Positions 47,452 through 61,944 of a DNA stretch of 64,000 nt are shown piece by piece. The translations under genes and the position numbers were made by a program. The notes under the pieces were generated by a model. That model was not told where the DNA came from, made no database searches, and worked only from the letters and a program-made list of their open reading frames with translations. Each line of letters opens with the position of its first letter. Positions within the stretch are counted from its first letter, which is position 1. Origin of the DNA: Cognaticolwellia sediminilitoris (GTDB taxonomy: Bacteria > Pseudomonadota > Gammaproteobacteria > Enterobacterales > Alteromonadaceae); contig NBOG01000002.1 in the NCBI GenBank assembly GCA_002104535.1, positions 194,240 through 258,239 on the forward strand, written 5' to 3'.

Positions 47452-48054
47452 TTAAAACTTATTTGTTTGCGCTATTTCTCGTTCAAGCTTAGAGATGGCT
47501 TGCCGACATCGACCAAGTCTTTGATGTAAAGCTAGTACTTCTTCAGAAAGTTGTTGACTCACTTTAGCTGTGGCTTTTTGTCTTTGGAGTTCTCGGGCTT
47601 CAATCATTTCGATTAATCTGCGTTCAAATTCAAAAGTCTCATTGAGCTTATTATGAAGATTATGACTTGATTGCATGACCGCTTGAGCTGCTTTTTTATA
47701 ACGCCTAGCTTTCATAGCTACAAGTCTTTGCTCTGGTTCTTTGTGGAGCTCACTATTAGAATTTAAGGCATTACGCAAAGCGGATATTTGTTGTTCAATT
47801 TGCAGTAAACGGCTATGTGCAAGGTTATTTTTTTTAGCTGCTAATAAACGTGACAATTCATGAGTTTGCTTTTTTACTTCTAAAACATATGGATGAAATA
47901 GATCACTGTGCGTGAGGAATAGGGCTTCAGAAAAAATATCATTCTCTTGAATAACTTTATGAGACTTTGCTTGCTTGTTTTGTTGATCAATCTGTTGTGC
48001 TTGCAAACTTAGTTGTTCGAGTATGTTATGAATTTTATCTATGGCAGTGTTCAT
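47452..48054 (-). CDS. priC: Primosomal replication protein PriC
   Basis: Helical protein, 200 aa, that helps reload the replicative helicase at stalled forks by the PriC/Rep route. The C-terminal half aligns well with E. coli PriC: FEFERRLIEMIEARELQRQ and RLGRCRQAISKLEREIA. The N-terminal half is a less conserved coiled-coil-like region with Gln-rich stretches. Follows the TSUP gene by 12 bp. Confidence 0.8.
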   Translation of the reverse strand: MNTAIDKIHNILEQLSLQAQQIDQQNKQAKSHKVIQENDIFSEALFLTHSDLFHPYVLEVKKQTHELSRLLAAKKNNLAHSRLLQIEQQISALRNALNSNSELHKEPEQRLVAMKARRYKKAAQAVMQSSHNLHNKLNETFEFERRLIEMIEARELQRQKATAKVSQQLSEEVLALHQRLGRCRQAISKLEREIAQTNKF

Positions 48055-48066
48055 ATCTAGCCTTTA

Positions 48067-48849
48067 TTAGTTTAACCAAGCTTGATAAGCCAAGTTTACA
48101 GACATTAAAATAACGACAGTAATAAAAACGGGCCTGATGAACTTACCACCAAATTTAATTGCCCAATGTGCACCGACCCAAGCGCCAAGCATAATAAAAA
48201 CGCCCATCGAAATACCTAACAAAAAATTAACATGTCCAAGGTAAATAAAGGTTAATAAGCTAAAAAAGTTACTGATAAAATTGGTAGAGCGTGCCAAACC
48301 AGAACTTAATAAGATATCAATCTTATATAAGATATTAGATGAACTCACCCAAAAGGCGCCAGTTCCCGGACCCGCAAAGCCATCATAAAACCCGAGTATG
48401 AAGCCTTGCACACATTGTTTATATTTTACTAGCATGGTTTTAACAGGTAAACCGCAAACATCGTTAATGGTTGATTTTGATAATAAAGTATAAATAGCGG
48501 TTAAAATGATCAGTACTGGGATGTATTTTTCTAAAAACTCACCAGATACGAAGTTTACAATGAGGGTGCCAGTTATTGCGCCAATAGCAGTCGATATTAA
48601 TGCAATGCGCCAAAAGGACGGGCTAAAAAGTTTTTTTCGATAAAATGCAAATGAAGCAGTAAACGAGCCAAATGAAGCCGCTAATTTATTTGTGCCTAAT
48701 GCAACATGAGGAGGTAAGCCTGAGGTTAATAGTGTTGGAACTGTCAACATGCCACCACCGCCAGCGATAGCATCTATAAGCCCAGCAAAAAAACCGACGC
48801 TACATAAGGTTATCCATAAACTCATGTCTAGGACGGGATCTATAACCAT
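48067..48849 (-). CDS. TSUP/TauE-SafE family permease (YfcA-like)
   Basis: 260-aa membrane protein with about eight helices. The start (GFFAGLIDAIAGGGGMLTVP) and the second-half repeat (GFYDGFAGPGTGAFWV) are the paired glycine-rich motifs of the TSUP family, closest to E. coli YfcA. Substrates in the family include sulfite, thiosulfate and organosulfonates; none can be assigned here. First gene of a probable pair with priC. Confidence 0.85.
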   Translation of the reverse strand: MVIDPVLDMSLWITLCSVGFFAGLIDAIAGGGGMLTVPTLLTSGLPPHVALGTNKLAASFGSFTASFAFYRKKLFSPSFWRIALISTAIGAITGTLIVNFVSGEFLEKYIPVLIILTAIYTLLSKSTINDVCGLPVKTMLVKYKQCVQGFILGFYDGFAGPGTGAFWVSSSNILYKIDILLSSGLARSTNFISNFFSLLTFIYLGHVNFLLGISMGVFIMLGAWVGAHWAIKFGGKFIRPVFITVVILMSVNLAYQAWLN

Positions 48850-49487: not shown

Positions 49488-52283
49488 ATGTATAGCAATA
49501 GCAAAATAGCTAAAGCAGTGCGCGTCGCCATGATGTTTGGTGCAGGTACAGCCGCAGCAATTTCAGCACCAGCTTTCTCAGCTGAAGAAAAAGCTGAAGC
49601 AATAGAAAAAATTGAAGTAACTGGTTCTCGTATTAAACGTGCAGATATGGAAACGGCACAACCTGTTGCAATTATCGATCGTGCAACACTTGAAGCATCA
49701 GGTTTAACTTCAGTTGGTGACTTTTTACAATCACTTCCTATTGCTGGTTCAGCAATAAACACAACTTTTAACAATGGTGGTGACGGTTCAACTCGAATCG
49801 ATTTACGTAACTTAGGTTCAAGCCGTGTACTTGTACTAGTTAATGGTCATCGTTGGATTAACTCTGGTACAGGTGCTGTATACGGTTCTGATGCTATCGC
49901 TGGTGTTGTAAACGTAATCACTCGTACTGACTTTGAAGGCGTTGAATTCAATGCTTACACTGGTCAAAGTGCTGAAGGTGACGGCGGACAACAACAATTT
50001 GATATCACAACTGGTGTATCAAATGATAAAGGTCACTTAACCTTAAACGTATCATATACTAACCAAGAACCAATTTTTGCTGGTGACCGTGAAATCTCAG
50101 AAGACCCTTTCTTTGGTTCAGGTAACCGTTTAGGTTCTTCTGGTACTCCTCAAGGTCGTTTTGCATTTGTTGATTATGATCCAAATACAAGCAACTATGC
50201 TGGTTTCGTAAACCACTCAGTAACTAAAGGCTTCCCAACGAATGGTCAAGTTCCTAACCGTCCATTCTTAGCTGATGGCTCTGCTAACCCAGATAGCGAC
50301 TTTACTAGCTTTAGTAACGATATTCGTTACAACTACGCGCCAGAAAACTACTTATTAACGCCTCAAGACCGTTGGTCTTTATACGTTTCAAGTGGTTATG
50401 AAATTGCTGATGACGTGCAATTAACTGCTGACGTACTTTACAATCACCGTGAATCAGGTCAGCTTTTAGCGCCAATGCCTTTGTTTATTGGTCCTTGGGC
50501 TGGTGGTGCTGAAGCATTGAACCCTACAGTTGTATCTGGTCAAAATATTTATAACCCATTTGGTTACGATATTTTTGGTGCAGATCATATGGATTACTAC
50601 AACGGTGGTTTTATTGGTCGTCGTTTGATTGAAAATGGCCCTCGTCTTTTCTCTCAAGAAGTTGAAACGTGGAAGTTCAATTTAAGCCTTGACGGTATCG
50701 TTGAAGTTGTTGGTAATGAGTGGAACTGGTCATTACATGCTGGTTACGGTGATAACCGTGCTACTTCTACAACTCAAGGTCGTATTAACAAAACTCGTTT
50801 ATCTTATGCCTTAAGTGCAGAATGTAATTCAGATCCTAGCTGTGTACCATTTAACTTATTTGGTGGTGAAGGTTCTATCACTGATGAAATGCTTGGTTAC
50901 ATGACGAGCACTGAAACTAGTGAAGGTGGCAACACTTTATGGAATTACTCTGCAAACCTTTCAGGTATTGCATTTGAAATGCCTGCTGGTGAAGTTGGTG
51001 TTTCATTCGGTTATGAATACCGTCGTGAAAATGGTTTCAACAGACCAGATTACTTGGTCCAAAGTGGCCAGTCTTCAGGTGGTAGTGTTCAACCAACAGA
51101 AGGTGGATTCTCAGAGAGTTCATACTACATGGAAGCTCAAGTTCCATTGTTAGCTGATGTTGATTTTGCTCAACAAGTTGATTTAAGTGTTGCTATTCGT
51201 CGCACTAACATTGAAAACACTGTTGGTGTTGAAAATGATAACACTAGTTCAAGCCTTGGTTTAACTTGGCGTGTAGATGACGATTTACTATTCCGTGGTA
51301 ACTTCTCAACAGGTTTCAGAGCTCCTTCTGTATCTAACTTGTTCGGCGGTTTATCAACAGGTTTCCCTTCAGTAACAGATCCATGTAATTCAGATGGTTC
51401 AGGTAATGAAGTTTGTGCTGGCGTACCTTCTGGTTACTCACAACCTAACACTCAATTAGAAGCACAATCTGGTTCTAATGAAGCACTAGAGCCAGAAGAG
51501 TCTGAAAGTACTTCATTTGGTTTAGTGTACGACGCTAGCTGGTTAGAAGGCTTTAACTTATCAGTTGATGTTTGGAGTATTCAAATTGATAACGTAATTA
51601 CTTCTGCTGGTTTCCAACAAGTATTAAATACTTGTTCACCAACAGCTACAGGTGATGATGCAACGCATCCAATTGCACCTTTCTGTGATAGCTTGTTACA
51701 ACGTGCAGCTAGTGGTGTTCCAGTAACATTCATTAACCCATTGTTGAACTCAGGTACATTAGAAACTAACGGTGTTGATTTCGATGTTATTTATAACTTT
51801 GAAACATCTTACGGTGACATCAACTTAACATGGGATGCGACTTACACAGATACGTATCGTTTAGTTAATGATCAAGGCGTAGCTCAATCTAACCAAGCTG
51901 GTCGTAACTTAGGCGACGCTGGTTTCCCTCGTTGGAAGTCTAGTGTTAATGCTACTTGGAACATTGATGACTTTAGCTTAGTGTATAACATTCAGTACAT
52001 CGGTGAGCAAGAAGAAAGCTGTGCAGTTGGTTTCGTATCAACTGATACATGGAGATGTTCTGACCCAGATGGTGAGTTCAATACTCTTGATGCAACTGTC
52101 TACCATGACATGCAAGCTAGCTACTACCTAGATGAATACAACACACGTTTCACTCTAGGTGTTAACAATATGTTTGATAAAACGCCACCAATTTCAACTA
52201 CAGCGTTTGCAAACTCATTTGATGCGAGTTTATATGATCCTACTGGTCGTTTCTTCTACGGTCGAGTTTCAGTTAAATTCTAA
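49488..52283 (+). CDS. TonB-dependent outer-membrane receptor
   Basis: Outer-membrane active-transport receptor, 931 aa from ATG 49488 (preceded by AGGGAG). Signal peptide (about residues 1-32, cleavage after SAPAFSA), then IEKIEVTGSRIKRADMETAQ with the usual TonB-box-like VTGSRI, plug domain to about residue 150, and a 22-strand barrel ending RFFYGRVSVKF with the terminal Phe. It belongs to the large-receptor branch of Alteromonadales and Caulobacterales. Oddity: NGHRWINSGTGAVYGSDAIA lacks the ~20-25 residues (IPxxxIERIEVLxxGAS) that normally precede AVYGSDAIAG in the plug. Substrate unknown; the two TPR enzymes downstream may be linked. Confidence 0.9.
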   Translation: MYSNSKIAKAVRVAMMFGAGTAAAISAPAFSAEEKAEAIEKIEVTGSRIKRADMETAQPVAIIDRATLEASGLTSVGDFLQSLPIAGSAINTTFNNGGDGSTRIDLRNLGSSRVLVLVNGHRWINSGTGAVYGSDAIAGVVNVITRTDFEGVEFNAYTGQSAEGDGGQQQFDITTGVSNDKGHLTLNVSYTNQEPIFAGDREISEDPFFGSGNRLGSSGTPQGRFAFVDYDPNTSNYAGFVNHSVTKGFPTNGQVPNRPFLADGSANPDSDFTSFSNDIRYNYAPENYLLTPQDRWSLYVSSGYEIADDVQLTADVLYNHRESGQLLAPMPLFIGPWAGGAEALNPTVVSGQNIYNPFGYDIFGADHMDYYNGGFIGRRLIENGPRLFSQEVETWKFNLSLDGIVEVVGNEWNWSLHAGYGDNRATSTTQGRINKTRLSYALSAECNSDPSCVPFNLFGGEGSITDEMLGYMTSTETSEGGNTLWNYSANLSGIAFEMPAGEVGVSFGYEYRRENGFNRPDYLVQSGQSSGGSVQPTEGGFSESSYYMEAQVPLLADVDFAQQVDLSVAIRRTNIENTVGVENDNTSSSLGLTWRVDDDLLFRGNFSTGFRAPSVSNLFGGLSTGFPSVTDPCNSDGSGNEVCAGVPSGYSQPNTQLEAQSGSNEALEPEESESTSFGLVYDASWLEGFNLSVDVWSIQIDNVITSAGFQQVLNTCSPTATGDDATHPIAPFCDSLLQRAASGVPVTFINPLLNSGTLETNGVDFDVIYNFETSYGDINLTWDATYTDTYRLVNDQGVAQSNQAGRNLGDAGFPRWKSSVNATWNIDDFSLVYNIQYIGEQEESCAVGFVSTDTWRCSDPDGEFNTLDATVYHDMQASYYLDEYNTRFTLGVNNMFDKTPPISTTAFANSFDASLYDPTGRFFYGRVSVKF

Positions 52284-52302
52284 ATTGAATTGTTAATTGT
52301 TT

Positions 52303-52329
52303 TAAAAAGCCGCATTTGCGGCTTTTTTT
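52303..52329 (+). terminator. Terminator after the receptor gene
   Basis: AAAAGCCGC / GCGGCTTTT (52305-52313 with 52318-52326), 4-nt loop, T-run. The next gene starts 22 bp later, so its expression would come from read-through or its own promoter. Confidence 0.88.
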
Positions 52330-52350
52330 ATATTTAAATAACACTTACTT

Positions 52351-54150
52351 ATGAATAATATTTTACAACAAGCCCATAATTTATTTGTTCATGGCAGGTT
52401 CAAAGAAGTGATCACTTTAATAGCTCCGTTATTAAATGATCAGCCTAATAATCCAATCTTTAATAAAATAATGGGGTTATGCTATAAAGACCTGCATGAT
52501 TCTTTATTAGCAATAAAATACTTAAATCAATCCCTGAAATATCAAGCCAAGCAGCATGACTTGGAAAATATTGTTGGTACAATTTATAAAAAACTTAACA
52601 AACCTGAGTTAGCAATAAAGCATTACCAAAATGCTATTTCGATAGATGGCGATAATGTTAACTATTTAAATAACTTAGGGTTTATGCTCATAAATGTACA
52701 ATCCTACGACCAAGCTGAGCAATGCTTTATTAAGTCCCTGAAAATAAAGTGTGACCAAGCGAATGCTCGAATAGGTTTAGCAAGTTCATATAACCTTAAT
52801 AATAACGAGTTCAAAGCAAAAGAATTGTTAAAAGAGGTTATTAGCGATAACCCAAACAACTTCATAGCAACTTATAACTTAGCGTTAATATGCAAAAAAC
52901 TTAAGTCATACGATGAGGCACTAAGCTACTTTAAAAGTGCTAATGCCATAAAACCAAACGTGACAAGTTTATTAGAAAATTTAGGCTTCTTATACTACGA
53001 AAATAACCAAGTTGAACTAGCAATCACTGCGTTTAAAGACGGTTTAAAAGCCAACCCTACAGATGTCGCTTTAAATAGCGCGTTAGCACGTGTTTTATGG
53101 GAACAAGGCAGTAAGGATTTCTTGTCTCATTATCAAACACGGAAGGTTAGTGAAATGACCATAGACCTTGCTATTGATTATTATTTCAAGCTAATGAAAG
53201 TGGGTGACATAGGAAAAGCTGGTGAGGTTTTAAGCACTATAGAAAGCACCTATGAAAATAGCCTCATGGTAATTATTGCAAGAAGCCAGTTTCTGTATGA
53301 GAACAAAGATTATCAAAAAGGCTATTCAACTCTTATTAACCTTCAAAAAATAAGACCATTAGTAGCTGCAGAGTTAGATTGGCTTGCTCGGCACGCCTTT
53401 GCTTTGGGAAAATATGATGAAGTTATTAAAATATATGAAGATTTAATTATTGTAGAACCCGATCATCAAGGCTATTGGTGTTTATTGAGTACAGCTTTAA
53501 GAGAACAGGATTATGGCCGCTTCGAAAACTTAACTTTATATAATGAGCTCATTTTTATTGTTGATATTGACCTACCCGACGGATATGACAATATTGAAAA
53601 GTTTAATGTTGAATTAATGGCTGAATTAAAAACTACCCATATCTCGAATCACCAACCACTGGAACAAAGTCTAGTCGGGGGCACCCAAACTATCGGCAAC
53701 CTATTTACGGGCTCAAAAACTAATGTCGAAAAGTTAGAGAATTCTCTCAAGGCAACTATTACAAAAACATTAAACAAGCTGCCTCATCGGATCACACATC
53801 CAACACTTAAACACGCTAATAGTGATTTTAAATTTTCAGGCGCTTGGTCTGTTTGGTTAACATCTTCAGGTTTCCATAAAAGTCATTACCATTCAGAAGG
53901 CTGGTATAGCGGTGTGTATTATGTGAATACTCCTGATGAAAGCGACTTAAAGCAAGGCGCTGGGTATTTAAAAATTGGTGAACCTGATATTATTTTACCA
54001 AGTCAACATGACGCAGAATATTATATAAAGCCTAAATCAGGGCAATTAGTCTTGTTTCCATCATTTTTATGGCATGGAACAGTTCCGTTTAAATCAAAAA
54101 CTCCACGAGTGACTGTCGCGTTTGATATTACGCCACAATCTAAGAAGTAG
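52351..54150 (+). CDS. TPR protein with C-terminal 2OG-Fe(II) oxygenase domain
   Basis: 599 aa, cytoplasmic (no signal peptide). About the first 380 residues are TPR-like helical repeats (e.g. AIKHYQNAISIDGDNVNYLN, YDQAEQCFIKSLKIK). The C-terminal ~120 residues carry a putative 2OG-Fe(II) oxygenase domain: HKSHYHSEGWYSGVYYVN (metal-ligand region, near residue 510), GQLVLFPSFLWHGTVPF (distal His) and PRVTVAFD (2-oxoglutarate-binding Arg). Likely a prolyl-hydroxylase-like enzyme; target unknown. The ribosome site is weak. It is 5 bp from the sulfotransferase gene. Confidence 0.8.
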   Translation: MNNILQQAHNLFVHGRFKEVITLIAPLLNDQPNNPIFNKIMGLCYKDLHDSLLAIKYLNQSLKYQAKQHDLENIVGTIYKKLNKPELAIKHYQNAISIDGDNVNYLNNLGFMLINVQSYDQAEQCFIKSLKIKCDQANARIGLASSYNLNNNEFKAKELLKEVISDNPNNFIATYNLALICKKLKSYDEALSYFKSANAIKPNVTSLLENLGFLYYENNQVELAITAFKDGLKANPTDVALNSALARVLWEQGSKDFLSHYQTRKVSEMTIDLAIDYYFKLMKVGDIGKAGEVLSTIESTYENSLMVIIARSQFLYENKDYQKGYSTLINLQKIRPLVAAELDWLARHAFALGKYDEVIKIYEDLIIVEPDHQGYWCLLSTALREQDYGRFENLTLYNELIFIVDIDLPDGYDNIEKFNVELMAELKTTHISNHQPLEQSLVGGTQTIGNLFTGSKTNVEKLENSLKATITKTLNKLPHRITHPTLKHANSDFKFSGAWSVWLTSSGFHKSHYHSEGWYSGVYYVNTPDESDLKQGAGYLKIGEPDIILPSQHDAEYYIKPKSGQLVLFPSFLWHGTVPFKSKTPRVTVAFDITPQSKK

Positions 54151-54155
54151 ATACT

Positions 54156-55688
54156 ATGAAAAAAGAAGTAAATAACATTGTCGAACTTGCAAAGAAAGGG
54201 CAGGGGTTAGTCGCCTTAGAAAAATTAAAAGCATATGTTGAAGATAATGGTAAAGATGAAGAAGCTATTTTTCTTTTAAGTTCTTGGTTGTTCCAAAAAA
54301 TGGATTGGGATTTATCAGCGCAATACATGGAAGCTTTACTATTATTAGCGCCAAATAACAAAAGCCACCTTGAAAACGCAATTGGTATGTATTTACAAAT
54401 GTCTAACTTCAAACAGGCGTTAGTGCATCAAAAAACACTGGTGGAAATTGACCCTGCCGATAGTCAGAATAAATATAAATTAGGTATGTTATATCACCGT
54501 TTATTTGACTTTGACGCCGCATTGTCCGTTTTTAAAGAACTAGAAAAGGAGATGCCGGAACAGCCACAAATATTAGGTGTTATAGCTGATATTTTACACG
54601 GTTACGGAGACTTTGACGCAGCTATAAATTATTATCAACGCATTCTGAACCAAGAGCCAAACAATGAAGCTGCATTTAATGGCATAGTTAAATCGACCAA
54701 ATATAAAACCCCCGATCTTAAGTTAGTTGATATATCTAAGCGTATTTTATTGGCGCCTAACGTTAGTAAAGAGGCGAAAGCACAAATTCACTTTTCTCTG
54801 GGTAAAATGTTTGATGATTGTAAGAACTATCATGAGGCTTGGTTGAATTATCAAGCGGCAAATAAGTTACAATCTGAGTTATTTCCATATAACCATAGCT
54901 CGCTAGAGTCTCAAATTAAGCAAATCAAAAAAATCTATACCAAGGATTACTTTAAAGAGCATGAAGACACTGGTGATGCCTCGGTATCGCCTATTTTTAT
55001 TGTTGGAATGCCTCGAAGTGGCACAACACTGTTAGAACAAGTGTTAGAGCATTCAGGTAATATTTGTGCTGGTGGAGAATCTCTGGCTTTGAACAAAGCT
55101 ATTAACCGACGCTTTTATAATATACGTTACCCTGACGAATTATATAAAGCGGATAGTGCTGTATTTAAGGAGCTTGCTAATGATTATCAGGACTATTTTA
55201 AACAATGCCATCTTAATGGTGATTTACGTTCCATTGATAAGTTACCTGGAAATTTTTTACATTTAGGTTTGCTTAAAAAAATGTTTCCAAATATGAAAAT
55301 AATTAATTTAAGTCGTAATAAACTTGATTGCAGCTTATCGATATTCTTTCAAATGTTTGCTAGTCATATGACTTTTACCTCAAATTTACATCATATATCA
55401 TCATTTTACGATACTTACGTAGAAACAATGTCGTATTGGAATGATATATTTCCTGAGAATATTTTTAATTTGAGTTATGAAAACTTTGTGAGTGATTTTG
55501 AAAACAATACAAAAGAATTATTTAAGTTTTTAGACTTAGATTGGAATGATAATGTCGGGAAGTTTGTGGAAAGTAAAAATTCCGTGCAAACACCAAGCTC
55601 ATGGCAAGTTAGACAGGGAATTAATACCAAGTCAGTTGGCCGCAGTAAGCATTATGAGGGGTATTTAAAAGAGATTATCCAGTTATAG
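54156..55688 (+). CDS. TPR-containing sulfotransferase family protein
   Basis: 510 aa, cytoplasmic. TPR-like repeats over about residues 1-265 and a PAPS-dependent sulfotransferase domain from about 275: 5'-phosphosulfate loop IFIVGMPRSGTTLLEQVLEH (residues near 280-300), GGESLAL, DKLPGNFLHLGL, and 3'-phosphate motif INLSRNKLDCSLSIFF. The catalytic base could be a His or Glu in this fold; I do not assign it. Paired with the oxygenase gene, downstream of the receptor; such groupings recur in marine Alteromonadales as far as I recall. Confidence 0.82.
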   Translation: MKKEVNNIVELAKKGQGLVALEKLKAYVEDNGKDEEAIFLLSSWLFQKMDWDLSAQYMEALLLLAPNNKSHLENAIGMYLQMSNFKQALVHQKTLVEIDPADSQNKYKLGMLYHRLFDFDAALSVFKELEKEMPEQPQILGVIADILHGYGDFDAAINYYQRILNQEPNNEAAFNGIVKSTKYKTPDLKLVDISKRILLAPNVSKEAKAQIHFSLGKMFDDCKNYHEAWLNYQAANKLQSELFPYNHSSLESQIKQIKKIYTKDYFKEHEDTGDASVSPIFIVGMPRSGTTLLEQVLEHSGNICAGGESLALNKAINRRFYNIRYPDELYKADSAVFKELANDYQDYFKQCHLNGDLRSIDKLPGNFLHLGLLKKMFPNMKIINLSRNKLDCSLSIFFQMFASHMTFTSNLHHISSFYDTYVETMSYWNDIFPENIFNLSYENFVSDFENNTKELFKFLDLDWNDNVGKFVESKNSVQTPSSWQVRQGINTKSVGRSKHYEGYLKEIIQL

Positions 55689-56367: not shown

Positions 56368-57000
56368 AAACTTTCCTTTTTAAATTAACTCGCCAATTAA
56401 CAATATCGTTATAAAGTTGTCAAAATTAGCAACAAAATATTGAATTTATATTTACTAGTATAAATTAAGAATATATATATATATATTTTAAAGCGTTACA
56501 TTTTATTTCATGAACTTTTGTAATTTATGATGCGAATTTGTTATAAAGAGAAAATGCTAATTTTACAGGTATGATTTACTATAGAAGGGAATCACTAAAG
56601 AGAGCTTTAAATATATTTAACATTAGAGTTGTTTAAAATTAAATCAAAAAAGTGGTTTATTGTGGCAATTTGATAATAATATTTGACTTACTACGAAAGA
56701 GTTAGTAAAACATGTTTAGCATATATTTTTACAATTAAGAGGATTTCAGTAACAACGAAGAAAGCGATATTATTCTGTATAATTGAATATATTGTTCAAT
56801 TCTCGTTACAATACAGTTTACTTTGCTCTATAAAAGTGAAATAAGCGGTCTTTTTAATGTACTTAGTTGACAGTTAGGCTGTCGTCTGGGAATATTGCAT
56901 GGTTTTATTCTAGAGAAATTAAAACTTAAAATGGCAGATTATTAAATTTGCGTTAACAATAAGCTTGTTATCAAAATTCAATAGCAATTGGTTGGGAACT
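56368..57000. other. Long AT-rich region before the TonB2 operon
   Basis: About 630 bp with no gene. It holds an (AT)8 tract at 56471-56486 and an inverted repeat AATTGAA-N7-TTCAATT at 56781-56801 that could be an operator. I looked for a Fur box, expected for a TonB system; the best match (GATAATAATATTTGAC near 56682) is too weak to call. Confidence 0.5.
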
Positions 57001-57780
57001 ATGTCCAAATTAAGCAAGAAAAGCCTTATCGCAACGACGATTATTGGCGCACTAGCATTTTCAGCAAGCAACTTCGCAGCTGCAGATGCTTTAACAGAAC
57101 TACAAAAAGCCGAGGCTCAGATTTTTAAAGCTTCTAGTAAATCACAAAGTAAAATTGACAATATTTACGGACAAACTCAAGATCTATTAGCTGAGTACCG
57201 TAATACTGTTGATGAAGCTGATGTGTTGAAAGGCTATAACGATCACGTTCAACTTATGGTTGATGATCAAAAAGCTAATATCAAATCATTACAGTCGCAA
57301 ATTGCTGGTATCGATAAAACCAAGCAAGGTGTTGTGCCTTTAATGTATAAAATGATAGACACATTAGAGAAGTTTGTTGACCTTGATGTTCCTATGAACA
57401 TTGAAGCGCGTAAAGAGCGTATCGCTGGACTTCGTGATGTAATGGGCGATTCAGATGTATCAGTATCTGAACAGTTTCGTTTAGTGTTAGAAGCATACGA
57501 AATTGAAGCAAATTACGGCACTATTTTCGGTGTGTATCAAGGTGAACTAGACTTAGGCGATCGCAAGATCACTGCTGACTTTGTTCACATGGGTCGTATC
57601 TCTTTCGTTGCACAATCTCTTGACATGAAAAATGCTTGGGTTTGGAACAATGATAAGCGTGATTGGGATGTTTTAGGTGACGAATACTTGAAGCCTGTTA
57701 CTGATGCCGTACGTATGGCTCGTAAGCAATTACCACTCGATCTAGCTAAACTACCAGTATTTGCAGCAGGAGCAAAATAA
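57001..57780 (+). CDS. DUF3450 family periplasmic protein of the TonB2 operon
   Basis: 259 aa with a signal peptide (cleavage near NFAAA, residue 26) and an N-terminal coiled coil (to about residue 100), followed by a domain with FGVYQGELDLGDRKITADFV and RISFVAQSLDMKNAWVW, typical of DUF3450. In Vibrio the same gene precedes ttpC-exbB2-exbD2-tonB2. ATG 57001 gives a clean signal peptide; an in-frame TTG at 56965 would add 12 residues. Its stop overlaps the ttpC ATG by one base. Confidence 0.85.
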   Translation: MSKLSKKSLIATTIIGALAFSASNFAAADALTELQKAEAQIFKASSKSQSKIDNIYGQTQDLLAEYRNTVDEADVLKGYNDHVQLMVDDQKANIKSLQSQIAGIDKTKQGVVPLMYKMIDTLEKFVDLDVPMNIEARKERIAGLRDVMGDSDVSVSEQFRLVLEAYEIEANYGTIFGVYQGELDLGDRKITADFVHMGRISFVAQSLDMKNAWVWNNDKRDWDVLGDEYLKPVTDAVRMARKQLPLDLAKLPVFAAGAK

Positions 57781-59123
57781 TGAAAAAAGTTATTAATTTT
57801 GTACTACTTGCTGCTTCGATGACAGTAGCAGCTTCAACTTCAGCTAATCAGTTAGATGACTTGTTAAAACAAGTAAAAGCTGACCGTATTTCTGAAGCGA
57901 AAATTGATAAGAAACGTGAAGCGGAATTCCTTTCTGCTCGTGCTGATAAGCAAGCGTTATTAAATTCAGCGAAAAAAGAACTAGCGAACTAACAAGCGCG
58001 TAACAAGCGTTTGACTAAAGAGTATGCTGACAACGAAATTACTTTAGCGCAAAAAGCAGTTGAGTTAAGCAACGCACAAGGTACTTTAGGTGAAATGTTC
58101 GGCGTGAGTCGTGCAGCAGCAGCTAATGCCTACGGTTCAATTGCAACGTCTATCGTTTCAGCTGAATACCCAGGACGTGGTGAAGTGTTAAACACTATCG
58201 CTAACTCGAAAGAGATTCCACAACTTGAGCAACTTGAAGAACTTTGGTTTGCTTTGCAAACAGAAATGACTCAATCAGGTGAAGTTTCTAAGTTTACTAC
58301 TGAAGTAACTAACTTAGATGGTTCAAAGTCAACTGAATCTGTAGTTCGTGTTGGTACGTTTAACTTAATCTCTGAAAATGGTTACTTAAACTACAATGAT
58401 GAAGTTGGTCAAGTTCAGCCTCTAGCTAAGCAACCTGCAGGTTATATTGCTGGTGCAGCATCTTCATTCTTCGGTGAAACTTCTGGTTATGCTCCTCTTT
58501 ATGTGGATCCATCTCGTGGTGCTATCTTAACGCTAGAAACGCGTAAGAAAACATTAATGGAGTTCTACCATGAAGGTAAAGAAGTTGGCTATGCAATCAC
58601 AGTACTTCTATTCTTTGGTGTGTTAATTGCGCTAGAGCGTATGATTGTTCTTGGTAGCATGAGCTCTAAAATCAATGCACAAACGAAGAACCTTGATCAA
58701 CCAAATGAAAACAACCCTCTAGGTCGTTTATTAAAAGTTTACTTCGATAATAAGTCTGTTGATGCTGAGACGCTTGAACTTAAACTTGATGAAGCTATAT
58801 TACGTGAAACTCCAAAAGTTGACCGTGGTATTAACTTAATCAAAATGTTCGCTGCAATTGCACCATTAATGGGTCTATTAGGTACAGTAATCGGTATGAT
58901 TATGACGTTCCAAACAATCACATTGTTTGGTACAGGTGACCCGAAAATTATGGCGGGTAACATCTCACTAGCACTTGTAACTACAGCTTTAGGTTTGATT
59001 TGTGCATTGCCACTTATCTTAATCCACAGTGTTGTTGCTGGTAAGAGTAAATCTGTACTACAAAAATTAGACGAGCAAAGCGCTGGCTTAATCGCTGCGA
59101 TTGCCGAGAAGGAGTCTAAATAA
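57780..59123 (+). pseudogene. ttpC: TtpC-type MotA/TolQ/ExbB protein, interrupted by an in-frame TAA at 57990-57992
   Basis: Two frames that are one gene. 57780-57992 encodes a signal peptide (KKVINFVLLAASMTVAASTSA) and a coiled-coil start, ending KKELAN-stop; after TAA, the same frame continues QARNKRLTKEYADNEITLAQ and runs to 59123 with the periplasmic domain and an ExbB/TolQ membrane domain (about residues 275-440: EVGYAITVLLFFGVLIALER; APLMGLLGTVIGMIMTFQTI). Full length would be 447 aa with codon 71 as the stop. TtpC is required for TonB2 function in Vibrio. A single base change of TAA would restore the gene, so it may be a recent nonsense mutation, a sequencing error or a read-through site. 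Downstream re-start could only give a protein without a signal peptide. Confidence 0.85.
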
Positions 59124-59647
59124 TGTTATTCCTGATAGAGCTTTGGGAATCTGTCAGGAGTTTTATTGCGACTGGCGGTAACGTGCTTTACGTTGTTGCC
59201 TTCGCACTCTTATTGATGTGGATAATGATGATAGAACGTTATTGGTTCCTATCTAAAGTTTATCCTCAAATGAAAAACGATATCGTTGGACGTTGGGATG
59301 CGAGAGAAGACACAACTTCTTGGTATGCACATCGAATTAGAGATACTTGGATCTCCGAAGCGACAGAACTACTAGAGCAACGTATGCTCACAATTAGAAC
59401 CTTGGTGGCAATGTGTCCACTCATTGGTTTACTTGGTACCGTAACCGGCATGATCGGTGTGTTTGAAGTAATGGCACAACAAGGTACAGGTAATCCGCGT
59501 CTGATGGCGTCTGGTATTTCAATGGCAACAATTCCGACTATGGCGGGTATGGTTGCTGCATTATCAGGTGTGTTTTTCAGTTCAAGGTTAGACGCTAAAG
59601 TTAAACTAGCAAAGGCTAAACTGATTGACAGTTTACCTCATCACTAG
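59123..59647 (+). CDS. exbB2: Biopolymer transport protein ExbB (TonB2 system)
   Basis: Proton-channel subunit, 174 aa, three membrane helices (about residues 18-38, 95-115, 130-155). Family motif CPLIGLLGTVTGMIGVFEVM and MASGISMATIPTMAGMVAAL. Start overlaps the ttpC stop by one base, so its translation could suffer from a premature stop upstream (polarity), although ttpC translation could re-start after the TAA. Confidence 0.93.
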   Translation: MLFLIELWESVRSFIATGGNVLYVVAFALLLMWIMMIERYWFLSKVYPQMKNDIVGRWDAREDTTSWYAHRIRDTWISEATELLEQRMLTIRTLVAMCPLIGLLGTVTGMIGVFEVMAQQGTGNPRLMASGISMATIPTMAGMVAALSGVFFSSRLDAKVKLAKAKLIDSLPHH

Positions 59648-59659
59648 AGAGATATTCGA

Positions 59660-60061
59660 ATGGCACGTAAACGTATTCGTGAAGACGAAGAAGCAGCAAT
59701 AGACATGACGCCGATGCTTGACATCGTATTCATTATGTTGATTTTCTTCATCGTAACTACTTCTTTTGTTAAAGAAGCTGGTATTGAAGTTAATAAGCCT
59801 AAAGCGGCAAACCAATCTAAACAAAAATCAGCCAATATCTTTATTGCAGTTAAAGATAACGGTGAAATTTGGTTAGACAAGCGTCGCGTAGATGTTGAAC
59901 GCGTTGCGGCTAACATTGAAAAATTATTAGCTGAGCAACCAACTGATGTTGTAATCATTCAAGCTGACAAAGACGCTAAACATGGTGTAGTTGTTAAAGT
60001 AATGGATGCAATTAAAGAAGCGGGCATAGACAGAATTTCTATCGCTGCAGCTAAGGGGTAG
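59660..60061 (+). CDS. exbD2: Biopolymer transport protein ExbD (TonB2 system)
   Basis: 133 aa: short cytoplasmic start, membrane helix (about residues 20-38) with the essential Asp in MTPMLDIVFIMLIFFI, and a periplasmic domain with VIIQADKDAKHGVVVKVMDA. Channel partner of ExbB2 that passes the proton-motive force to TonB2. GAGAGA before ATG 59660. Confidence 0.95.
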   Translation: MARKRIREDEEAAIDMTPMLDIVFIMLIFFIVTTSFVKEAGIEVNKPKAANQSKQKSANIFIAVKDNGEIWLDKRRVDVERVAANIEKLLAEQPTDVVIIQADKDAKHGVVVKVMDAIKEAGIDRISIAAAKG

Positions 60062-60064
60062 TCT

Positions 60065-60682
60065 ATGGTTCGCTTTTTAGTATCTATACTACTAGGCGCG
60101 GCAGTAACATTTGCTTTGTTTTCTTTTATGGCATTTCTTGTCTCTAGCGGTGATAGAGTTAAAGAAGAAGGCTTAGAGAATATCATCGTAGAAGTTAATA
60201 CGACGCCACCTAAGTCAGCAGCTGAACGCCGTCAACGTGTTCCGCCGCCGCCACCACCGCCGCCTAAAACGCCACCTAAGCCTCAAGCTCCTGAGCCTGA
60301 GACTAATACAGATAATGGTGGATTAACGTTTAATATGCCTGGCGTACAATTAGCCGGAGCAAATGCAGGTATATCTGCACCTGGCGCTGGATTTGGTCGT
60401 GACGGAGATGCAACACCAATAGTTCGTATTGAGCCTAAATACCCAATACAAGCAGCTCGTGATGGTAAAGAAGGATGGGTAAAACTATCGTTTACTATCA
60501 ATGAAATTGGTGGTGTTGAAGATGTTGATGTTATCGAAGCTGATCCTAAACGTGTTTTTGATAAAGAAGCAAAACGCGCTTTACGTAAGTGGAAGTACAA
60601 ACCTAAAGTTGTCGATGGCAAAGCCATGAGACAAGAAGGGTTAACTGTACAACTTGACTTTAAAATGGACGGAGGGAATTAA
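60065..60682 (+). CDS. tonB2: Energy transducer TonB (TonB2 type)
   Basis: 205 aa, shorter than TonB1 proteins. One membrane helix (about residues 4-26), a short proline-rich spacer (VPPPPPPPPKTPPKPQAPEP, residues near 60-79) and a C-terminal TonB domain (RIEPKYPIQAARDGKEGWVK ... RALRKWKYKPKVVDG). Couples ExbB2/ExbD2 to outer-membrane receptors such as the one at 49488-52283. 3 bp after exbD2. Confidence 0.95.
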   Translation: MVRFLVSILLGAAVTFALFSFMAFLVSSGDRVKEEGLENIIVEVNTTPPKSAAERRQRVPPPPPPPPKTPPKPQAPEPETNTDNGGLTFNMPGVQLAGANAGISAPGAGFGRDGDATPIVRIEPKYPIQAARDGKEGWVKLSFTINEIGGVEDVDVIEADPKRVFDKEAKRALRKWKYKPKVVDGKAMRQEGLTVQLDFKMDGGN

Positions 60683-60684
60683 TA

Positions 60685-61944
60685 ATGACTAAGATATTTT
60701 CATCTTTACTGTTAATTGTTTCAGTTGTTCTTATTCAATTGCCAATCGCTGCACAAGTATCTGCAGCAGGTGCTGAAGAGTCTGAAAAGCCAAAGCGTAA
60801 AACACAACTGGTAGGCCCAAGTGTCGGTAAAAAAGTTGCTAAAGCATTTGAAGCTTACTCTGCTGACGATATTCCTGGTGCGTTAGTTATCCTTTTGGAT
60901 ATCGACGCGAACAAGGAGTACGACAAAGCTTATGTTGCTCGCTTTATAGCAGTTATGTATGCCTCTCAAGGTAATGAAGAAGCGAAAGCAATTCAATACT
61001 TAAAGCAGGCTGTTGAACCCGATATCCTTAACGAAGGTGACCAGGGTGAAGCAATTAAATTGCTAGCTGATTTGCAAATGCAAACTAAAGCTTATGAAGA
61101 AGCATTAGTAAACTACAAAGCTTGGATGGACTTTACCGGTAAATCTGATGGTGATACTTGGACTAAAATAGCTCAAGCACATTATGCGTTAAAGCAATTA
61201 GATAAAATGATTGCTCCTGCGGATAAAGCTATTGCGGCATATGGTGACAAGCAAAGCAAAAATCCTTATATTTTGAAGGTTACATCGTATTATGAAACCA
61301 AAAAATATAACGAAGCTGTTAAGACGCTTGAAACTGTTGTCCAAATATTTCCAGAAGATAAAACATGGTGGACTCAGCTTGGTATGTTTTACTTGTTAGT
61401 TGAAGATTATAAGAAAGGTTTACAAACTCTGGATCTTGCTTATAAACAAGGATTTCTTGAAAAAGAATCTGAAATCAAGACATTAGCAAGTTTGTACTCA
61501 CAAAACGCAGTACCATACAAAGCGGCTTTATTGTTAGAAAAGCATATTGATTCAGGCTTAGTAACTCGTGACGATAAAAACTTATCTTCACTCGCTAATG
61601 CTTGGCATGCGGCTCAACATATTGATAAAGCAGCAAAGTATTACGGCGAAGTTGCTAAAATGACTAATCTTGCTAAACATTATAGTAAGCAAGGCATGTT
61701 GTTAAAGCAGGATGAGCAATTTAAACCGGCGATTGTTGCATTAACGAAAGCATTAGAGCTTGGTGTTTCAAATGAAGGTAGACTGCATATGAGTATTGCA
61801 GAAGCACACTTTTATTTAGAACAGTACAAAGAAGCTTATAAAGCGATTAATCTTGCGATGAAAGATCCTCAAACCCGTAAGTCTGCAAAAGGCTGGGTCG
61901 GATTCATCAAAGACACTGCGCAACGTAAAAACATTTCTATCTAA
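60685..61944 (+). CDS. TPR-repeat periplasmic protein of the TonB2 operon
   Basis: 419 aa with a signal peptide (about residues 1-25, cleavage near QVSAAGA) and TPR-like repeats to the end (e.g. AIQYLKQAVEPDILNEGDQG, AIVALTKALELGVSNEGRLH). A TPR protein closes the TonB2 operon in Vibrio too; its role is not settled. Last gene of the operon, 2 bp after tonB2, followed by a terminator. Confidence 0.88.
   Translation: MTKIFSSLLLIVSVVLIQLPIAAQVSAAGAEESEKPKRKTQLVGPSVGKKVAKAFEAYSADDIPGALVILLDIDANKEYDKAYVARFIAVMYASQGNEEAKAIQYLKQAVEPDILNEGDQGEAIKLLADLQMQTKAYEEALVNYKAWMDFTGKSDGDTWTKIAQAHYALKQLDKMIAPADKAIAAYGDKQSKNPYILKVTSYYETKKYNEAVKTLETVVQIFPEDKTWWTQLGMFYLLVEDYKKGLQTLDLAYKQGFLEKESEIKTLASLYSQNAVPYKAALLLEKHIDSGLVTRDDKNLSSLANAWHAAQHIDKAAKYYGEVAKMTNLAKHYSKQGMLLKQDEQFKPAIVALTKALELGVSNEGRLHMSIAEAHFYLEQYKEAYKAINLAMKDPQTRKSAKGWVGFIKDTAQRKNISI

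Follow-up and report, generated by a model that had tools for sequence, protein, structure and literature searches.

The window analysed here is a stretch of 64,000 nucleotides (nt) from Cognaticolwellia sediminilitoris (assembly GCA_002104535.1, contig NBOG01000002.1, positions 194,240 to 258,239 of the forward strand). It contains a gene for a TonB-dependent receptor (TBDR) followed by the genes of two enzymes that both begin with an array of tetratricopeptide repeats (TPR) and end in different catalytic domains, one of a 2-oxoglutarate (2OG)-Fe(II) oxygenase and the other of a 3'-phosphoadenosine-5'-phosphosulfate (PAPS) sulfotransferase. The three open reading frames (ORFs) are co-directional and separated by 67 and 5 nt, and the genes, families and coordinates that an earlier sequence-only reading had assigned were confirmed by the ORFs and by Pfam (Table 1). 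The receptor matches TonB_dep_Rec_b-barrel (6.5e-34) and Plug (4.2e-10), the oxygenase matches TPRs and 2OG-FeII_Oxy_5 (PF13759, 1.5e-22), and the sulfotransferase matches TPRs and Sulfotransfer_3 (PF13469, 5.1e-35). The cassette lies upstream of an operon with the order DUF3450-ExbB-ExbB-ExbD-TonB-TPR, with a Sel1-repeat gene in between, and is flanked on its other side by PriC and TauE genes. The source genome, 3.84 Mb in 31 contigs, has one match to PF13759, four to PF13469 and 28 TBDR barrels.

Table 1. The cassette and its surroundings in the window (aa, amino acids).
Feature	Position	Strand	Basis
TBDR, 931 aa counted from the given ATG	49488..52283	+	Pfam Plug and beta-barrel
TPR-2OG-Fe(II) oxygenase, 599 aa; PF13759 domain 498-592 behind TPR helices that reach about residue 400	52351..54150	+	
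TPR-sulfotransferase, 510 aa; TPR array followed by the TPST-like PAPS sulfotransferase domain (279-465)	54156..55688	+	
Plug junction; the receptor is without 26 residues (78 nt) that relative L063 has	49862..49885	+	Alignment of 82 receptors, DNA comparison
Terminator-like hairpin between receptor and oxygenase	52304..52327	+	
PriC and TauE genes, other border of the variable slot	47452..48849	-	
Sel1-repeat protein, 169 aa	55858..56367	-	Pfam; secretion-like N-terminus by eye
DUF3450 protein, opens the adjacent TonB2-type operon (TtpB position)	56965..57780	+	Pfam, gene order
ExbB-family gene at the TtpC position, in-frame stop at 57990-57992	57780..59123	+	
Remaining genes of this TonB2-type operon: ExbB, ExbD, TonB and TPR (TtpD position)	59123..61944	+	

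The two TPR enzymes

The sulfotransferase is, by fold and catalytic residues, a tyrosylprotein sulfotransferase (TPST)-like PAPS enzyme. Its AlphaFold model (mean pLDDT 91.9) was aligned with folds of the Protein Data Bank (PDB), and the top seven were all TPSTs (Z 18.9-19.3, root-mean-square deviation (rmsd) 2.6-2.9, 228-233 residues), followed by the Curacin and olefin synthase sulfotransferases at Z 16.3. A PDB sequence search with the sulfotransferase domain at a threshold of E 0.001 returned protein-tyrosine sulfotransferases only, four distinct sequences with E from 3.5e-6 to 8.6e-4. The catalytic residues reported for TPST1 are R79, E100, K159 and S286 (PMC5562738), and the window enzyme has R287, E308, K362 and S481, which are kept in 29/29 aligned sulfotransferase sequences. 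The R and E columns match TPST in the HMMER alignment, while K and S were equated with those of TPST1 only from their order and spacing (21, 54 and 119 residues as compared to 21, 59 and 127). The 60 sequences of the survey described below all have R and K, and 59 have E and S. The sole surveyed TPR-sulfotransferase without the catalytic E and S, in L182 (3293-4942), has no TBDR neighbour.

The oxygenase (mean pLDDT 94.8) scores 80.4 bits against PF13759, well above the cut-off of 27, and 51.2 against the NCBI subfamily TIGR02466, which is under its cut-off of 62.5. Residues H509, H512, H514, H575 and R586, which may include the ligands of iron and 2OG, are kept in 38/38 oxygenase sequences; in L057, which is not among the 38, a Q replaces the conserved arginine. 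The PF13759 domain matches the uncharacterised structure 3bvc (Z 17.6, rmsd 3.7, 182 residues), and the TPR part is a long superhelix, nearest to designed and OGT-like TPRs.

In both AlphaFold models the TPR helices start at residue 2 and keep a common register until residue 166. This leaves no space for a signal peptide, in agreement with the earlier statement that neither enzyme is secreted; a Sec signal is what is expected for the TBDR family. Sequence similarity between the two TPR arrays is weak, the best stretch being 24% over 115 aa with E 8e-4, which implies that the shared front half pointed out in the sequence-only reading is a common architecture and not the product of a recent duplication.

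Linkage to TonB-dependent receptors

To follow the TPR-sulfotransferases in the GTDB family of the source genome, where the names Colwellia, Alteromonas and Thalassotalea recur, we hand-chose 60 regions among the matches listed, namely the best TPR-length match from each of 40 genomes and 20 others, with frames of at least 460 aa. Two genes were taken to touch when no other frame of 100 aa or more, on whichever strand, lay between them, and in this as in several of the locus surveys genes were labelled by similarity to a few query proteins, with Pfam run on a selection. The TPR-sulfotransferase touches a TBDR in 53/60 regions, including three seeming exceptions that turned out to be Oar-like receptors (CarboxypepD_reg, Plug, barrel). 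A TBDR lies at most four genes away in 56/60, and none was found in the remaining four (L182, L189, L191, L194). The 20 controls, hand-chosen from rows with frames shorter than 400 aa, touch a TBDR in 0/20. Of the 60 survey sequences all match PF13469 and no fewer than 58 a TPR model, whereas the controls match PF13469 in 20/20 and a TPR model in 0/20; this was confirmed by a later check, since the sulfotransferase was initially unlabelled in 10 of the controls. A TBDR label occurs in one control region only, L207, five genes off, and nine large unlabelled frames in the control regions are not TBDRs. Control region L220 also holds an additional TPR-length sulfotransferase without a TBDR. Where receptor and sulfotransferase are adjacent on the same strand, the receptor comes first in 52/59 pairs. 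The source genome shows the same distribution, as two of its three TPR-sulfotransferases (L006, L007) touch a TBDR and that of the window is one gene away from one, and its fourth sulfotransferase, without TPR (L008), touches none.

The oxygenases gave a similar picture. The collection comprised 105 loci including the window, 80 of them named loci that are the best 80 of at least 580 relatives. After removal of six duplicates and six loci in which no TPR-oxygenase frame could be used (L061, L062, L063 with a run of N, L094, L121 and L125), 93 were left; L130, L118 and L114 are identical in oxygenase to L044, L046 and L049. Fewer than three genes were available on one side in 28 of the 93, leaving 65 with adequate flanks. 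A TBDR lies within six genes of the TPR-oxygenase in 55/65, and a TPR-sulfotransferase is near 24/65, all 24 of which also have a TBDR within six genes. Among all 93 loci the corresponding numbers are 64 with a TBDR, 28 with a TPR-sulfotransferase and 26 with both. Other modifying enzymes occur near 36/55 TBDR-bearing loci as compared to 1/10 TBDR-less ones. The three genes had been proposed to form a functional unit, with chance as the explanation if they were found separately as often as together. They are together far more often (55/65; 24/24; 53/60 against 0/20), and the grouping is not chance.

Rather than a fixed trio, the cassette represents one form of a wider and variable set of enzymes linked to receptors. 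No TPR-sulfotransferase is found within six genes in 31/55 TBDR-bearing oxygenase loci, and many TBDR-sulfotransferase pairs have no third conserved gene in the gene lists. The same order of TBDR, oxygenase and sulfotransferase in the same PriC/TauE-TonB2 setting was seen in L063, a gammaproteobacterial metagenome-assembled genome, with 42% identity to the window in the oxygenase, whose frame holds the short run of N, and 57% in the sulfotransferase.

This slot beside the TonB2 operon was followed in 20 further genomes, chosen from the 35/40 with a DUF3450 match. Upstream of the DUF3450 gene it holds a TBDR in 15/20 genomes and in 10/11 genus-mates. In 7/15 of the TBDR slots there is no labelled enzyme; a methyltransferase occurs in L309, L315, L316 and L321, one of 424 aa in L310 and, by size, in L311, an AspH-like enzyme together with Sel1 in L314, and a sulfotransferase in L322. 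No TBDR label was found in the slots of L318, L319 and L325, and L320 is cut by the contig. In L326 a TBDR, a TPR-sulfotransferase and a methyltransferase lie beside an ExbB gene, the DUF3450 frame being unlabelled. The largest set consists of a TBDR, a TPR-oxygenase, a methyltransferase, an AspH-like hydroxylase, a TPR-sulfotransferase on the opposite strand and two PF13661-type oxygenases, and was observed in seven loci (L043, where the methyltransferase is missing, L044, L045, L047, L048, L049 and L103); it was checked by Pfam in L045 and, for AspH, also in L043.

Receptor and enzyme sequences also diverge together. A mirror-tree comparison of 73 sulfotransferase-receptor pairs, 69 of them on one strand and some receptors being counted with two sulfotransferases (68 distinct receptors), gave r 0.78, and the largest value among 2000 permutations was 0.19. 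The paired receptors span seven receptor clusters, Oar-like included, which suggests that the receptor fold, and not a single ligand, is the common factor. In 28 loci with an oxygenase, a receptor and a TonB2 operon, the oxygenase correlates with the receptor at r 0.80, with ExbB at 0.50 and with DUF3450 at 0.49. The partial r of oxygenase and receptor given ExbB is 0.73, a value reached by 0/2000 permutations. A pattern of this kind is what a functional pair should give.

Some further gene contents were noted in these loci. The slot of L057 (2564-10854) has a radical SAM enzyme of 836 aa and a methyltransferase, and that of L055 includes SapC. The slot has homologues of the Sel1-repeat protein in L046/L118, L137 and L314 as well, and in some of its versions the system may include this protein. 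A divergent BCCT (betaine/choline) transporter gene stands beside the TBDR-sulfotransferase pair in L006 (977-2926) and L149 (3-1766), and a frame of similar size and position was seen in several other loci of this group. In L292 (G145:C42:5188-15331), from another proteobacterium, the sulfotransferase family is expanded, with four TPR-sulfotransferase matches in about 10 kb and no TBDR label in the short flanks.

Candidate substrate and state of the system

With a receptor as the common partner, two cytoplasmic TPR enzymes and a TPST-like domain, the simplest reading is that the receptor precursor is the substrate. We therefore tentatively favour a TBDR-linked cassette for protein modification in the cytoplasm, acting on the receptor precursor as HMW1C does on HMW1. 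The TPR arrays, which are of a peptide-binding type, would bind the unfolded precursor in the cytoplasm, ahead of Sec export, the oxygenase would hydroxylate one or more of its residues, and the sulfotransferase would transfer sulfate to the hydroxyl of a tyrosine or to another one. The receptor would then arrive at the outer membrane chemically decorated. What the data show directly is gene linkage, co-divergence, folds and conserved residues, and the substrate, the order of reactions and the effect on the receptor are inferred. The sequence-only reading had suggested one peptide or protein target, both hydroxylated and sulfated, that could be the receptor or its ligand. A single such target is conceivable, and its polypeptide nature is indirectly favoured by the TPST-like domain. 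A separate short peptide found no support: no conserved small ORF was seen beside the window cassette, where the four intergenic stretches contain two ATG ORFs of at least 25 aa, neither with a match in the collected loci at E 0.01. A precursor peptide encoded elsewhere is possible. An ORF of 117 aa in L063 looks repetitive.

The system is probably inactive in the source strain, judging from the loss in the plug and the stop in the gene at the TtpC position. The plug loss is in frame, and the additional stretch of L063, the closest relative of the receptor, is bordered by short direct repeats; the change is likely a deletion between these repeats. The receptor still matches both the Plug and barrel domains despite the missing residues. 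The adjacent operon has the gene order of a TonB2 (Ttp) system, but its six genes are not all intact, and the interrupted ExbB-family gene is uninterrupted in relatives (447 aa in L045). Siderophore uptake through the TonB2 system of Vibrio vulnificus is reported to require each of the six TonB2 proteins (PMC6957404). Receptor and energiser are thus probably both without function in this strain, although the deletion and the stop may also be assembly errors.

It is probable that enzyme expression is limited by the hairpin behind the receptor gene. About 20 nt separate its T run from the start of the oxygenase gene, too few for a promoter behind the hairpin, and promoter-like sites in the region were not enriched (30 as compared to 33.4 in shuffles). 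Transcription of the enzyme genes would then probably depend largely on read-through, giving little enzyme and much receptor, although the enzymes may also have a promoter of their own. Such a hairpin is present in 34/50 receptor-sulfotransferase and 23/27 receptor-oxygenase gaps, against 14/137 other co-directional gaps; a second count gave 32/51 and 22/27, with a mean of 0.4 each in dinucleotide shuffles.

Several observations weigh against the receptor precursor as the substrate. Both enzyme frames are open although the receptor gene and the gene at the TtpC position are damaged. Hairpins stand behind 28/52 receptors taken as unpaired as compared to 55/73 paired ones; the unpaired set consists of the long frames of L223-L277 minus three of the source genome known to be paired, the frames from other genomes being assumed to be unpaired. 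The hairpin is accordingly a common receptor trait, and we rejected it as a special sign of coupling. In 68 paired receptors, tyrosines in a TPST-like acidic context are no more frequent than in the same 52: tyrosines with an acidic residue at -1 make up 0.123 of the paired and 0.146 of the unpaired set (p 0.025, in the wrong direction), and those in net-acidic surroundings 0.107 and 0.106. A simple TPST-consensus site on the receptor is disfavoured by this test. Nor could an acceptor motif be named from a conservation scan of two receptor groups (27 and 11 sequences). Linked inheritance alone, with the genes moving as one block, could give the observed co-divergence. Furthermore, a TBDR within six genes is missing in 10/65 oxygenase loci, and two loci with short flanks, L116 and L132, make up the 2/28 with a TPR-sulfotransferase and no TBDR in sight. 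In a phylum-wide scan (30 loci from 200 genomes; a tally of 198/200 genomes includes weak TPR-only matches and was not used) a TBDR label, sought within flanks of about 1.5 kb, is near 5/29 TPR-sulfotransferase loci other than the window, namely L286, L287, L288, L300 and L306, of which L287 and L300 come from the window's own family. A universal coupling of TPR-sulfotransferases to TBDRs was rejected on this count, the link being lineage-specific, and together with the TBDR-less oxygenase loci, L116 and L132 it implies that the enzyme families have other uses as well.

Two alternatives seem to us about equally improbable. In the first, the enzymes act on a small-molecule or peptide ligand of the receptor after its uptake, for use or detoxification, and the TPRs only dock the enzymes together. 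Co-divergence of receptor and enzymes would fit ligand specificity just as well, and a prolyl oligopeptidase (L321 14815-16767) and an aspartyl protease (L054 14422-15363) beside related receptors are a possible hint at peptide ligands. However, the TPR-sulfotransferases pair with several unlike receptor clusters, which are expected to differ in ligand, the Pfam search found no catabolic genes in the window cassette, and the TPST-like fold indicates a polypeptide. In the second, the substrate is another protein or an exported peptide, such as the Sel1 protein, a product of the TonB2 operon or a peptide whose gene lies elsewhere. DUF3450 is indeed found within six genes in 28/65 oxygenase loci, Sel1 homologues recur at the slot, and related loci combine hydroxylases with a methyltransferase, a radical SAM enzyme and a sulfotransferase, which resembles the maturation of ribosomally synthesised and post-translationally modified peptides. 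Yet DUF3450 is missing within six genes in 27/55 TBDR-bearing oxygenase loci, the oxygenase tracks the receptor better than it does ExbB or DUF3450, and no conserved small ORF was found near the window cassette. That TBDR regions are merely variable islands which gather enzymes without a common biochemistry is very improbable, for although the slot content differs between close relatives and transposase-like frames in two slots (L309 2856-4398 and 7884-8213, by eye; L320 3122-4744, with Mu-transposase and integrase domains by Pfam) indicate that the slot is open to insertion, TBDR contact is 53/60 against 0/20, the three TPR-sulfotransferases of the source genome all touch a TBDR or sit one gene from it, and the co-divergence exceeds the operon background.

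Beyond modification of the receptor precursor in this one cassette, a wider version can be imagined, common to Alteromonadaceae of the sea and to some other proteobacteria. Cytoplasmic enzymes encoded next to the TBDRs would generally hydroxylate, sulfate and methylate the receptor precursors, and the enzyme set would be swapped together with the receptor in a fixed chromosomal slot adjacent to a TonB2 operon, which would alter the ligand range or hide the receptor from phages and bacteriocins. We consider this unlikely in its full extent; if true, such a general dressing would amount to protein sulfation of outer-membrane receptors in bacteria.

TBDRs are the main nutrient gates of Gram-negative bacteria and receptors for phages and bacteriocins, and to our knowledge they are generally regarded as unmodified proteins. 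Through their recurrent link to TPR-borne sulfotransferases and oxygenases, modification of these receptors becomes an idea that is concrete and can be tested, and a large bacterial family of TPST-like enzymes gains a candidate substrate. Paired and unpaired receptors within one genome are well suited to proteomics. Full-text literature searches, which covered few subscription papers, gave, among the papers listed, no description of receptor-linked hydroxylation and sulfation, and the neighbourhoods hint at an undescribed chemical decoration of surface receptors.

Comparison with known systems

AspH, the aspartyl/asparaginyl beta-hydroxylase, acts on proteins and is located in the endoplasmic reticulum. 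It has the same layout of TPR and 2OG oxygenase domain as the window oxygenase, and its structures 6yyu and 7yb9 are at Foldseek ranks 48-49. The window enzyme differs in having PF13759 and not PF05118, for which Pfam gave no match at E 0.001.

RaxST acts on an exported peptide, and we know of no TBDR link for it. We liken the window sulfotransferase to it by description, without a sequence comparison. In Xanthomonas RaxST is presented as a bacterial sulfotransferase in the context of tyrosine sulfation (PMC4216712). TPST1 and TPST2 share with the window enzyme the fold (Z about 19) and the catalytic R, E, K and S. TPSTs are described as membrane proteins of the Golgi (PMC5562738), whereas the window enzyme is cytoplasmic, bacterial, equipped with a TPR array and 18-20% identical in the aligned part; the type II topology was not seen either, as the model has no membrane-anchor start.

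The operon next to the cassette resembles TonB2 of Vibrio (TtpB-TtpC-ExbB-ExbD-TonB-TtpD), as it likewise has a DUF3450 protein first and a TPR protein last, compare TtpB2 and TtpD2 of V. vulnificus (PMC6957404). It differs in the interruption of the gene at the TtpC position, whose identity as TtpC is read from gene order and membership in the ExbB family only.

As a kind of system, the cassette would by analogy work like the known cytoplasmic modification of exported proteins. HMW1C glycosylates the exported HMW1 in the cytoplasm (PMC3983070). It resembles the cassette proposed here in being a cytoplasmic enzyme with a helical N-terminal domain, encoded beside an exported surface protein and acting before Sec export (PMC3983070). 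The two differ in that HMW1C performs glycosylation, has an AAD fold and serves an adhesin, whereas the window enzymes carry TPRs, stand beside a TBDR and have that receptor as their presumed substrate.

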